Program-made: the position numbers and the translations under genes | Assembly (NCBI GenBank): GCA_036924855.1 | Contig: JBAGRP010000001.1 | Location: 930,001-994,000, forward strand | Direction: 5' to 3' | Source: Nitrobacteraceae bacterium AZCC 2146 | Lineage (GTDB): Bacteria; Pseudomonadota; Alphaproteobacteria; Rhizobiales; Xanthobacteraceae | Length of the DNA stretch: 64,000 bases | In this document: positions 8,165 through 10,984 of the stretch, piece after piece | How the letters are laid out: each line of letters starts with the position of its first letter | Numbering within the stretch: position 1 is the first letter of the stretch | The notes under the pieces: model-generated | Told to the model about the DNA's origin: nothing | The model's database searches: none | Seen by the model: the letters and a program-made list of their open reading frames with translations, nothing else

Positions 8165-8836
8165 TCACCCGAGTGTTCTTGCGCTCGCAATTCGTAACCA
8201 TTCGGCCTCGCCAGCGGGGGTTATCCCATAATATGGCACTCGATCGCCGCCGCGCTCCTGAACGATCTCAACATAGCCGCGAGCAGCAAGACGCTCCGTC
8301 GTGGCTAGGCCCGTTCCCTTGAAATAGCCGATGGCACCTTTGGCCTTGAAATATATCTCTAAGGCAGCAACTTCGAGCTTTCGCATCGGAGAGGCTTTAA
8401 CGATCGCCTCCCACTCACCATCAGCATAGACACGCATCCCGTTCGGATATTTCCCAACCGGCAATTCCTCCATGCCGATTTGGCCTGCTTGCCAGCGCTC
8501 ATACGCATTCGAGAGAGGATCGTCTGCCGATCTGCTGCTTTTGCCAAGTCTGTCGCCAAAACGTCGCGGTGGTGTGAGATCGTCAGAGATGTCGCTCGAA
8601 GGGTCGAACGTCGGAGAAGAAGTCGCGCGATCATCCCCGATTGCGTCGAATGCTTCGTCGAGACGGTACCGGTCCCAGATCACGCAACCATCGATTCGCT
8701 TGGGTTGCGGCATCCTGCCGTCGCGAACCATCTCGTCAAATTTCCCGACGGAAACCCCGATCCAATCGGACGCGGCTTCGCGTCGAAGGCCGCGGGGCGC
8801 ATAGGCCCGACTGGAAAGACTTTTGGAGCGCTTCAT
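8165..8836 (-). CDS. AlpA/excisionase-like HTH protein
   Basis: 223-residue protein. The N-terminal 70 residues fit a MerR-like excisionase/AlpA helix-turn-helix: LRREAASDWIGVSVGKFDEM, then DGRMPQPKRIDGCVIWDRYRLDEAFD. The middle is low-complexity. The C-terminal 80 residues contain a second winged-helix-like part (ERLAARGYVEIVQERGG...YYGITPAGEAEW). Proteins of this kind are common in phage-derived and integrative islands and regulate excision or island genes. I start at 8836; ATGs at 8845 and 8878 are alternatives. Confidence 0.6.
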   Translation of the reverse strand: MKRSKSLSSRAYAPRGLRREAASDWIGVSVGKFDEMVRDGRMPQPKRIDGCVIWDRYRLDEAFDAIGDDRATSSPTFDPSSDISDDLTPPRRFGDRLGKSSRSADDPLSNAYERWQAGQIGMEELPVGKYPNGMRVYADGEWEAIVKASPMRKLEVAALEIYFKAKGAIGYFKGTGLATTERLAARGYVEIVQERGGDRVPYYGITPAGEAEWLRIASARTLG

Positions 8837-8973
8837 GCTTGCCATGATCGCACACAGCCGCTGACGGGTGCCAGTCAACCGGAACTGTCTGCACGGAATT
8901 CACAGGCGGTACGCGCGCCAAAGCGCCCCGAGAGGGGAATGTTGATTGAAAAATAACCAAATCAGGTGCAGCG

Positions 8974-9253
8974 TGTCAGCGGGCCTAGAAAACCCTGACG
9001 CAAGATTGAGGCGCGCGACCCTTGGCGGGGGAGCGGCCTGACGACGCAATAGAGCTTTAGCGGGCTCGAAAACGTCTGAGGATGCACTTAGCGGTGCACC
9101 AACCTGGCCATTATGGCCGGGAGCGGTGCGCCATGTCCAGAGCTTAGCGGCTTAAAAGTGCATCGGCCTGTCTCTTGCGCAGGTTTTCTAGCTCCCGGCT
9201 GCCGGTCTGTTACCGGCGACGGCCCTAGAAAAGCCAACCGCAAGAGAACCATC
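8974..9253 (+). ncRNA. Structured leader, candidate riboregulator of the Tat gene
   Basis: Non-coding and densely self-complementary. Direct copies of CTAGAAAA-N6-CGCAAGA occur at 8985-9005 and 9225-9245. An inverted copy (CTCTTGCG 9172-9179, TTTTCTAG 9184-9191) can pair with either. The downstream copy contains the probable ribosome binding site AAGAG (9242-9246), 7 nt before the ATG at 9254, so that pairing would hide it. Inside the downstream structure GCCGGT/ACCGGC (9201-9217) forms a hairpin. Three small hairpins share the loop TTAGCG (9057-9062, 9088-9093, 9144-9149). GGCCATTATGGCC (9106-9118) lies inside a further stem. No family recognised; 8837-8973 upstream shows nothing definite. 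Confidence 0.55.
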
Positions 9254-9853
9254 ATGACGTTAGCTAGACCCATGTTTCCGCCGGTCGACCCGACCCGCCG
9301 GCGCTTCCTGTCTGCCACTGCTGGCCTAGCCGCCGGTGGCACCGCGATCGCGCTGGCAATCCAACCGGCGCGGGCCACAGCGGCTCCCCTGCCCGCGCTC
9401 AGCCCGCCATCCACGCCGCTGGACGGCTCCGAGGCGTCTCCAGCACTCCGCGCCGCGGCGCGGGCGCTGCAAGAGGCCAGCGATGCGCTGGACGCCGCCA
9501 AGGCGGCATTCAAAACCCAAGACGATCTGGCCGTCGAATGGCAGAATCAGAACCCGGCGCCCAGTGGCGACCGCCGGAAGCTGAAGCGATGGCACCGGCG
9601 CGCGCGTGACTACCGCGAAACGTCGGCCATGAGGCTGGCGTGGGATGCGCAGATCGCAGCCGAAGAGGCATTCGAGGCCGCGCAGGTCGAGGTCGCGAAG
9701 GTCAAACCGCGAGACACAACCGATCTCGTGTTGAAGGCGTGTCTGGCATTCGTTTTCGAGGAGCCAGGCAAACAGATCGGTTGGAACGCCCATGTCATCG
9801 CCCGGTCGGTGGCGCTGAGTCTCGCCAACATGGCATCGGCGGTGGCATCATGA
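9254..9853 (+). CDS. Tat-exported protein of unknown function
   Basis: 199-residue protein with a twin-arginine signal: RRRFLSATAGLAAGG near residue 15, then a hydrophobic stretch and an Ala-rich cleavage region near residue 38. The mature part is helical and charged, with an Ala/Asp/Lys coiled-coil-like section (residues 65-100). It belongs to a Tat-signal family that I recall as multi-copy in Bradyrhizobium-type islands, usually beside an acidic EPSLG protein, as here. Translation starts behind the structured leader. Unknown function; presumed periplasmic. Confidence 0.7.
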   Translation: MTLARPMFPPVDPTRRRFLSATAGLAAGGTAIALAIQPARATAAPLPALSPPSTPLDGSEASPALRAAARALQEASDALDAAKAAFKTQDDLAVEWQNQNPAPSGDRRKLKRWHRRARDYRETSAMRLAWDAQIAAEEAFEAAQVEVAKVKPRDTTDLVLKACLAFVFEEPGKQIGWNAHVIARSVALSLANMASAVAS

Positions 9854-10377
9854 GCACCCGCAAGCGCCCCGCAGCGCCAAAACCCGCGATCTACATCAAG
9901 ACGGACGTATCTCCGGAAACGCTCTTTCAGGCCATCGGCAGGCTGCGGAAAGAGGCGGCCGACGAGATTGACCGGCTTCTGACGTTTCTGGACAGCCTCG
10001 AGGATACCGACGTCGACTTAGGAATCGACGACGAGCCCCACGATCAGACGGGAGAAGACGACGAGGACGGCGTCGACAGCGAGCCCAGCTTAGGCTGGAC
10101 CGACTCGGGCGGAGGCGTTCTGTGCACCGGCCATTTCGACTTGGATGCCGAGGGCGAGGAACACGACGGCAGCGAGCCCGACGTCGACGACGAACCTTCC
10201 TTGGGCTCTTCTAACGACTATCACGGCAAGGGGACCGACTACGATCATATCGCGCCGGCGAACATAACCGACGCTGAAGGCCCGGACTACGACTTTGAAC
10301 CGTCGTTGTGTGGTGTCGGCAGTCATGTTGTCGGCGGCTTCGGCAACGACCGGGATCTTGAAGCCACCACGATCTAA
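9850..10377 (+). CDS. Acidic EPSLG-repeat protein
   Basis: 175-residue, strongly acidic protein. A basic start is followed by a helical segment (TLFQAIGRLRKEAADEIDRLLTFL) and then Asp/Glu-rich sequence with three copies of an (E/D)EPSLGW-like motif (SEPSLGW, DEPSLGSS, FEPSLCG). The ATG overlaps the stop of the Tat gene (ATGA), so they are translated together. The family is recognisable by the EPSLG motif but has no known function. No signal peptide, so it probably stays in the cytoplasm. Confidence 0.7.
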   Translation: MSTRKRPAAPKPAIYIKTDVSPETLFQAIGRLRKEAADEIDRLLTFLDSLEDTDVDLGIDDEPHDQTGEDDEDGVDSEPSLGWTDSGGGVLCTGHFDLDAEGEEHDGSEPDVDDEPSLGSSNDYHGKGTDYDHIAPANITDAEGPDYDFEPSLCGVGSHVVGGFGNDRDLEATTI

Positions 10378-10894: not shown

Positions 10895-10984
10895 TGGCGG
10901 AAGGGGTGGGATTCGAACCCACGGTACCCTTGCAGGTACGGCGGTTTTCAAGACCGCTGCCTTAAACCACTCGGCCACCCTTCC
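10895..10984 (-). tRNA. tRNA-Ser (anticodon UGA)
   Basis: A 90-nt class II tRNA on the minus strand with encoded CCA. The acceptor arms GGAAGGG and CCCTTCC pair, followed by G and then CCA. The D-arm begins GGCCGAGTGG, the anticodon loop reads CTTGAAA (anticodon TGA), a long variable arm follows, and the T-loop is GGTTCGAATCC. Its 3' end faces the accessory region at lower coordinates, the usual orientation for a tRNA used as an integration site. Confidence 0.97.

Follow-up and report, generated by a model that had tools for sequence, protein, structure and literature searches.

C4 is an unusual antisense RNA in that it is made from the same transcript as its own target; the GenBank record of phage P1 gives the order P1c4 promoter, a1, b1, 77-nt C4 RNA, a2, b2, icd, and ant. 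The C4 RNA carries two antisense stretches, b' and a', in the loop of stem P3 and in the joint after it, and C4-type RNAs are reported to be cut by RNase P at the 5' base of stem P1 (PMC5320573). C4 was described from Proteobacteria and phages, and c4-a1b1 from gamma-Proteobacteria and phages, in the survey of Weinberg (2010), whose Rhizobiales entries are flg-Rhizobiales, Rhizobiales-1, and Rhizobiales-2, with Rhizobiales-1 having no Rfam accession (PMC2864571). The C4 host orders of that survey, as repeated in the available part of PMC5320573, include no alphaproteobacterial one. Another RNA, sRNA-Xcc1 (RF02221), is an expressed RNA of 88 nt with predicted targets (PMC2996969) and is reported upstream of symE in integron cassettes (PMC12444791).

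The leader described here occupies positions 8974-9253 of the window, the whole 64,000-nt stretch of DNA that was analyzed and in whose coordinates all positions are given. It holds two copies of the direct repeat CTAGAAAA-N6-CGCAAGA (8985-9005 and 9225-9245), which are 240 nt apart and share 81% identity over 26 nt, and between both copies lies the inverted segment CTCTTGCGCAGGTTTTCTAG (9172-9191). Residues 8985-8994 form a perfect 10 bp with 9182-9191, while the downstream copy pairs with the inverted segment over 8+8 bp, with one more on the b side, as read from the sequence. A Shine-Dalgarno-like AAGAG is found at 9242-9246 ahead of the Tat gene, whose ATG start is at 9254, and three hairpins lie at 9052-9067, 9083-9098, and 9141-9152. 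All these elements are where a sequence-only reading had put them, and its proposal of one inverted segment with two alternative partners, 10 bp upstream and 8+8 bp downstream, is borne out, together with its claim that the downstream pairing covers the ribosome binding site. Of 2000 dinucleotide shuffles of 8974-9253, one contained a direct repeat of this gapped form, 91 a 10-nt exact inverted repeat, and none both; the fold of leader 8974-9280 was better than 100 of 100 shuffles (z -3.83). The comparative evidence from relatives is much stronger than these single-sequence tests.

Relatives were collected in several ways. When 18 genomes of the genus were searched at the DNA level, five gave matches, the window's own among them, and a protein search of genome contigs added a Tardiphaga MAG (L002) and Bradyrhizobium sp. 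CSA112 (L003). The covariance model R1, with a core of 139 positions and eight sequences, found a single copy in the genome of the window and, with E of 0.01 or less, hits in 69 of 391 family genomes, spread over 14 of 47 genera. With the broader covariance model R2, made of 78 sequences, and a limit of E 0.001, matches were obtained in 67 of 397 genomes at order level, 43 of 385 at class level, and 40 of 398 at phylum level; these three sets overlap, and each includes the window's own genome. Ten of 88 loci were left out of R2, eight as duplicates or near-duplicates (L016, L024, L040, L069, L083, L089, L091, and L092) and two that have no pairing sites (L076 and L079); the latter omission favors the reading given below, and both loci were kept in the family pairing counts. 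The wider set comprises 72 of the 77 loci fetched; the remaining five coincide with places of the first set. No similarity to the whole leader was found in plasmid and phage collections. One genome of the order-level set (G600) had seven matches to the RNA model.

The segment at 9115-9200 on the + strand, on which all parts of the cassette lie, folds with covariation into a three-stem P1-P2-P3 RNA of C4 shape. It comprises stems P1 (9115-9124/9191-9200), P2 (9125-9129/9160-9164), P2b (9141-9143/9150-9152), and P3 (9166-9170/9180-9184), and reaches this shape when folded alone (-38.7 kcal/mol, z -2.52); the slightly longer 9109-9206 folds likewise with a z of only -1.04. Just 5' of it stands hairpin P0 (9083-9098; double changes in 5 of 5 pairs, 97.5% of cells paired) and on its 3' side hairpin P4 (9201-9217; 6 of 6 pairs, 92.7%). 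Over the six helices, double changes, G-U pairs included, were seen in 32 of 33 pairs among 78 sequences. In the 78 distinct rows, 93.5% of cells were standard pairs vs. 70.9% in shuffles, of which 0 of 500 were as high, and this figure is biased toward pairing because the alignment was fitted to the structure. When partners were shifted by one to three columns, pairing fell to 32-47%. Without any prior structure, RNAalifold returned stems P0, P1, P3, and P4 and a P2 helix at nearly the same place from the eight-sequence alignment; P2b was absent from that result. The three hairpins had earlier been taken to suggest repeated sub-structures or protein sites, and two of them (P0 and P2b) do belong to one conserved folded unit, whereas the third (9052-9067, GAGC-TTTAGCGG-GCTC, between b1 and P0) was recognized by eye in near relatives only.

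The 143-nt piece 9080-9222 prefers another fold, in which 9081-9089 pairs with 9156-9164. This 9-bp pairing stabilizes an alternative precursor fold in the window copy, and the same complement occurs in L005; as a conserved switch it was rejected, with 4.20 bp matched vs. 4.03 bp mismatched over 78 loci.

The remaining parts of the cassette are arranged around this RNA. A promoter-like block, TTGATT...CAAATCAGG (8942-8966), lies upstream of a1; a similar block was seen by eye in many, not all, relatives, and phage P1 has its P1c4 promoter at the corresponding place. A sigma-70 consensus scan gave two sites on the - strand and none on the + strand, and a promoter at 8942-8966 is therefore presumed. 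The a1 site (8985-8994) is the 10-bp complement of a' and is carried in the loop of a hairpin, GUCA..GGG-a1-CCC..UGAC (8975-8999), with flanks that, by eye, are kept in the 30 of 73 loci inspected; b1 (8999-9005) is the 7-bp complement of b'. In the RNA itself, b' (UCUCUUGCG, 9171-9179) occupies the P3 loop and a' (UUUUCUAG, 9184-9191) the joint between P3 and P1, as indicated by both fold and pairing tests. Downstream, a2 (9225-9232) makes 8 bp with a' and is again held in a loop, that of GGC-a2-GCC (9221-9235; flanks kept, by eye, in the 30 of 67 loci inspected), and b2 (9239-9247) makes 9 bp with b' and contains the AAGAG of 9242-9246. Cross-swapping of the hairpin flanks gave 4.70 vs. 4.65 for a1 and 4.21 vs. 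4.22 for a2, a comparison that cannot show covariation because the flanks hardly vary.

The coupling of a'/b' with the two target sites was measured in a pairing test, in which b' and a' were taken from the structural alignment and paired as a then b, 2-22 nt apart, within 220 nt upstream and approximately 110 nt downstream. The same target with the b'/a' of other loci served as control, and rank 0-2 denotes that no more than two foreign a'/b' pair as well as or better than the locus's own. In the family set of 82 distinct cores, window included, the upstream site gave 14.89 bp matched vs. 10.29 mismatched (rank 0 in 63, rank 0-2 in 72) and the downstream site 13.63 vs. 9.80 (rank 0 in 53, rank 0-2 in 60), leaving 10 and 22 of 82, respectively, that did not stand out. 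Less than 1% of mismatched combinations among these 82 copies reached 14 bp. Both sites pass the pairing cut in 63 of 82 distinct copies (67 loci with duplicates), and these carry 49 different a'/b' combinations; in 59 of the 63, a gap of 6-10 nt separates the end of b2 from the start codon that follows. In the alignment of relatives, the repeat words vary between loci yet change together at all three places. The coupled change of a'/b' with both sites is thus observed directly, and the test that the sequence-only reading had proposed, covariation among relatives, finds both pairings kept through compensatory change.

In the wider set, the upstream site gave 14.28 bp matched vs. 10.15 (rank 0-3 in 58 of 72) and the downstream site 11.54 vs. 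9.51 (rank 0-3 in 30 of 72), the latter often being missing or only b2-like; the upstream site was also unclear in 14 of 72. From the rank counts of the two sets, the upstream site is general, and the full downstream site occurs mostly within the group of the window. Within a chosen subset of the loci without a downstream site, several (L165 and L168-L171) have only a b2-like word left, on the ribosome binding site. No pairing sites were found at the model matches L076 and L079 of the family set and L152, L156, and L158 of the wider set, and these may be false or different. The last three are R2 matches before ECF-type sigma-factor genes, without clear a/b sites, and are either spurious or cases in which the fold serves another purpose.

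At Rfam thresholds, the whole window yielded nothing but a tRNA. Under lax settings, two full-length sub-threshold matches were obtained in the leader, sRNA-Xcc1 (RF02221) at 9115-9208 with 26.2 of 53 bits and C4 antisense RNA (RF01695) at 9109-9206 with 18.6 of 45 bits, and in both alignments, the inverted segment falls on the P3 loop and the following joint. The sequence-only reading had recognized no RNA family, and this must be revised, as relatives do exist, being RNAs of the C4/sRNA-Xcc1 type. No match to c4-a1b1 (RF03163) was found up to E 5 in 8700-9500 or 8960-9260. C4 (RF01695) was found at gathering level in 0 of 55 distinct relative loci scanned, and RF01695 had no match in 149 genomes of the family; the control genomes likewise gave none, so that this zero carries no weight. 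A riboswitch or other known leader was considered and rejected, with no riboswitch family appearing at Rfam thresholds or lax settings; moreover, the variable bases would be the pairing bases, unlike those of an aptamer. The window RNA is a C4-like antisense cassette built like RF01695 and RF02221, and it is not filed under either since both thresholds failed.

The likeness to the C4 of phages P1 and P7 extends to the order promoter, a1, b1, RNA, a2, b2, and first gene; to the shape, in which P1 encloses P2 and P3, with b' in the P3 loop and a' in the P3-P1 joint; to the complementary partner sites, a1b1 upstream and a2b2 where the first gene has its ribosome binding site; and to AUUAUGG at the 5' base of stem P1, which phage P1 and the window share. 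The window differs in that its targets are Tat/EPSLG genes and not icd-ant, its own gene having no antirepressor domain; that covarying P0 and P4 belong to the conserved unit, for which phage P1 aligns a weak counterpart; and that a1 and a2 are held in GGG/CCC and GGC/GCC hairpins. The phage P1 piece itself scores 68.8 bits for C4 and 51.0 of 46.7 bits for c4-a1b1 in Rfam, and R2, which was built without phage P1, places the C4 position at the top of 12 places in 6 kb of that phage, with a weak match (11.1 bits, E 0.15; next 9.9). UAUGG at 9112-9116 fits the GGW/GGC sites of PMC5320573 and no more, so cleavage here is a prediction. The commonest 5' base of stem P1 in the family set is CCATTATGGCCGGG (12 of 88), and the loose AU-GG pattern is present in 56 of 88.

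sRNA-Xcc1 has the same shape as the window RNA, and three relatives exceed its threshold at the place of the R1/R2 match (L106 with 66.0, L077 with 53.7, and L073 with 53.2 bits), but the window copy reaches only 26.2 of 53 bits, and sRNA-Xcc1 is presented in the available parts of its accounts as a trans-acting sRNA with predicted targets only, not as C4-type (PMC2996969; PMC12444791). A search of 200 phylum genomes with RF02221 was over threshold in 30, including two of the window's family (G041 and G080) at R1/R2 places, and in none of the 14 control genomes, nor in the window's genome. R2 finds 25 of these 30 sRNA-Xcc1 loci (L177-L206; 26 matches), a recovery that is not fully independent because its 78 training sequences held L073 and L077; L185 is the same place as L106. 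In the 26 matches, the upstream sites gave 15.25 vs. 10.60 bp (rank 0-2 in 23) and the downstream sites 12.72 vs. 9.78 bp (rank 0-2 in 17). As RF02221 loci found by R2 pair with upstream and downstream sites, sRNA-Xcc1 may be read as C4-type. The a1b1/a2b2 partners in RF02221 loci also suggest a target for sRNA-Xcc1 and a clan with C4. The Acinetobacter group 1 sRNAs, which are C4-derived, are similar in that many C4-shaped RNAs with variable a' occur in one genome, whereas local a/b partner sites are not mentioned for them in the available part of PMC5320573, and in the window's group, both partner sites travel with the RNA.

The cassette is also found in phages. A pattern of the a1 hairpin, in which the RNA core was not used, matched 45 stretches of viral contigs, and R2 found the RNA just downstream on the same strand in 39 of them (40 matches); the viral copies that could be scored were at rank 0-2 in 37 of 38 upstream and 35 of 36 downstream. 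Six of the 39 viral contigs were examined for phage genes: L213, L241, L227, and L210 carry terminase, major head or tape-measure genes, and integrase genes occur in L213, L241, and L240. In tblastn with three integrases, a match lies 0.8-2.8 kb downstream, in the same orientation, at 12 of the 39 viral loci. The other sets, whose flanks are shorter than those of the viral loci, gave an integrase at 3 of 88 loci (in one case on the opposite strand), at 1 of 72 (there upstream), and at none of 25. When ten ORFs around the window copy were compared with PHROGs, only the divergent gene at 8165-8878 was matched, as a transcription regulator, so no prophage is recognizable from these ten. A tRNA-Ser gene (10895-10984) lies just to the right of the cassette, and a similar gene was seen by eye further right in L002; an island end at this tRNA was rejected, as its 3' end does not recur as an att repeat within the 80 kb on the left. 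In L163, a type II hammerhead ribozyme match (2888-2952; 66.4 bits, threshold 37) lies approximately 1.3 kb from the C4-like RNA.

The first gene behind the window RNA (9254-9853, + strand) encodes a protein of 199 amino acids with a Tat-type signal, the TAT-signal matches being below Pfam cut-offs, and otherwise of no known family; it has 98 relatives, hypothetical where named. The second (9850-10377, + strand) overlaps the end of the first with its start (ATGA) and encodes an acidic EPSLG-type protein with 303 relatives, of which the named ones among the 120 listed are hypothetical. Neither protein reached the cut-off of any Pfam family, and comparison with PHROGs, NCBIfam, and PADLOC listed no family for them under the limits applied. 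Many downstream genes in the window's group resemble Tat-signal or acidic EPSLG proteins, and the ones examined matched no family above a cut-off. Many listed relatives of the Tat protein match only approximately 10-25% of its length, at high identity, and in L038, a Tat-type start is joined to an EPSLG-type body. This looks like an exchange of different ORFs downstream of an RNA and a start that stay constant. Similar first residues, MTxxRPMFPP, were seen before different protein bodies at 9254-9320 of the window and in L038, L061, L210, and L236.

Among the 52 of 140 first ORFs that were scanned with Pfam, six TraM (PF09228), four Bro-N, two Rha, two AntA, and one P22_AR_N were identified, together with three sigma-70 factors, two RovC, and a single glycosyltransferase, FkbM methyltransferase, HNH, and others. 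Antirepressor-type proteins behind relatives were over Pfam cut-offs in eight of ten scanned. Eight TraM relatives or fragments were shown singly, including L082, L084, L085, L092, L113, L117, and one fragment; TraM is also present at L081, L083, and L088 by the count of the 52-protein scan and at L089 by near-identity only. The TraM loci (L081-L085, L088, L089, L092, L113, and L117) keep a1-b1 and have no clear a2-b2 near the start.

Taken together, the leader is most probably a C4-type antisense RNA cassette, whose released RNA, likely cut by RNase P, would repress the Tat/EPSLG genes. Transcription presumably begins upstream of 8985 and would yield one transcript that contains a1-b1, then the folded RNA, and then the Tat/EPSLG message. 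The segment 9115-9200 would fold into P1-P2-P3 and probably be cut free at the 5' base of stem P1, as RNase P does in phage C4. Acting in trans, the b' loop and a' joint would then bind b2 and a2, immediately ahead of the ATG of the Tat gene, and cover the ribosome binding site, and this pairing is predicted to silence both the Tat gene and the overlapping EPSLG gene. Alternatively, a1-b1, which lies at the 5' end of the transcript, may bind a'/b' and could act as a competitor or as part of a self-limitation. That b2 lies over the ribosome binding site and that the layout is the same as in phage P1 are observations.

The closest competing explanation, which is considered unlikely, is that the released RNA acts mainly in trans on other copies, as a superinfection or incompatibility control between related elements, with local repression being secondary. 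It would account for the diversity of specificities (49 combinations in 63 distinct copies), for the five genomes that each have two copies with different a'/b' (G107, G117, G276, G003, and G013), for the presence of the cassette in phage contigs, and for the many wider loci that keep a1-b1 without a clear a2; the C4 of P1/P7 is moreover reported to give heteroimmunity (PMC12197685). However, the window's group keeps a local target over the ribosome binding site, at rank 0-2 in the 60 of 82 given above, the window genome has just one copy, and some co-resident copies share a'/b' (L028/L040 and L081/L084 in G230, and L088/L089 in G223).

More doubtful still is the cis-only translational switch of the sequence-only reading, in which the segment stays in the leader and flips between the two repeat copies, with no RNA released. 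The two pairings on which it relies are strong as isolated duplexes (-27.2 kcal/mol for a1b1 and -24.4 kcal/mol for a2b2 in the window) and conserved, and of the two sites, the upstream one is present at more loci, so this part of the earlier model stands. Its other part, action in cis, fits poorly with the position of a' and b' in the joint and loop of a covarying RNA that folds alone, and with the C4 shape of that RNA, since the antisense segment of the best-studied relative is reported to be cut out and to act as a separate RNA (PMC5320573).

Activation of the downstream genes, as reported for the prophage RNA IsrK, which is described as activating anrP via orf45 translation (PMC12197685), is highly improbable; the leader of phage P1 does have a sub-threshold isrK match over its a1-b1 region (35.1 of 50 bits), but the spacing of 6-10 nt between the end of b2 and the next start codon, seen in 59 of 63 copies, is the geometry of a repressor. 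Finally, the idea that the repeats are a DNA feature, such as an operator, a recombination site, or the end of a mobile element, rather than RNA is scarcely credible given six helices with many compensatory changes including G-U pairs and sites that sit just before start codons, even though different ORFs follow a similar start in relatives, which makes recombination near the cassette likely.

A search of the open-licence literature for alphaproteobacteria, rhizobia, and broader terms found no description of this C4-like branch. The source of c4-2 is reportedly a 2017 paper. The branch may overlap with the Rhizobiales-1 motif, as that motif has no Rfam accession. The window RNA represents a form of the C4-type cassette in related soil bacteria and prophages that is largely missed by Rfam. 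Its full layout in many alphaproteobacterial loci, with three partners co-varying, makes the logic of C4, especially the part of a1-b1, testable by comparison and reporters. For sRNA-Xcc1, the C4-type reading offers a mechanism where targets have so far only been predicted (PMC2996969). Furthermore, the cassette points to uncharacterized prophage genes that are apparently worth keeping silent, and its many specificities could be a source of RNA regulators. More broadly, the chances are about even that C4, sRNA-Xcc1, and the window RNA form a single superfamily of antisense cassettes that are portable and self-targeting, have dozens of specificities, and are carried on prophages and conjugative elements across Proteobacteria. 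These cassettes would control antirepressors, accessory genes of lysogenic conversion (Tat/EPSLG), and TraM, and their a1-b1 would serve as an inbuilt competitor and determine the threshold.
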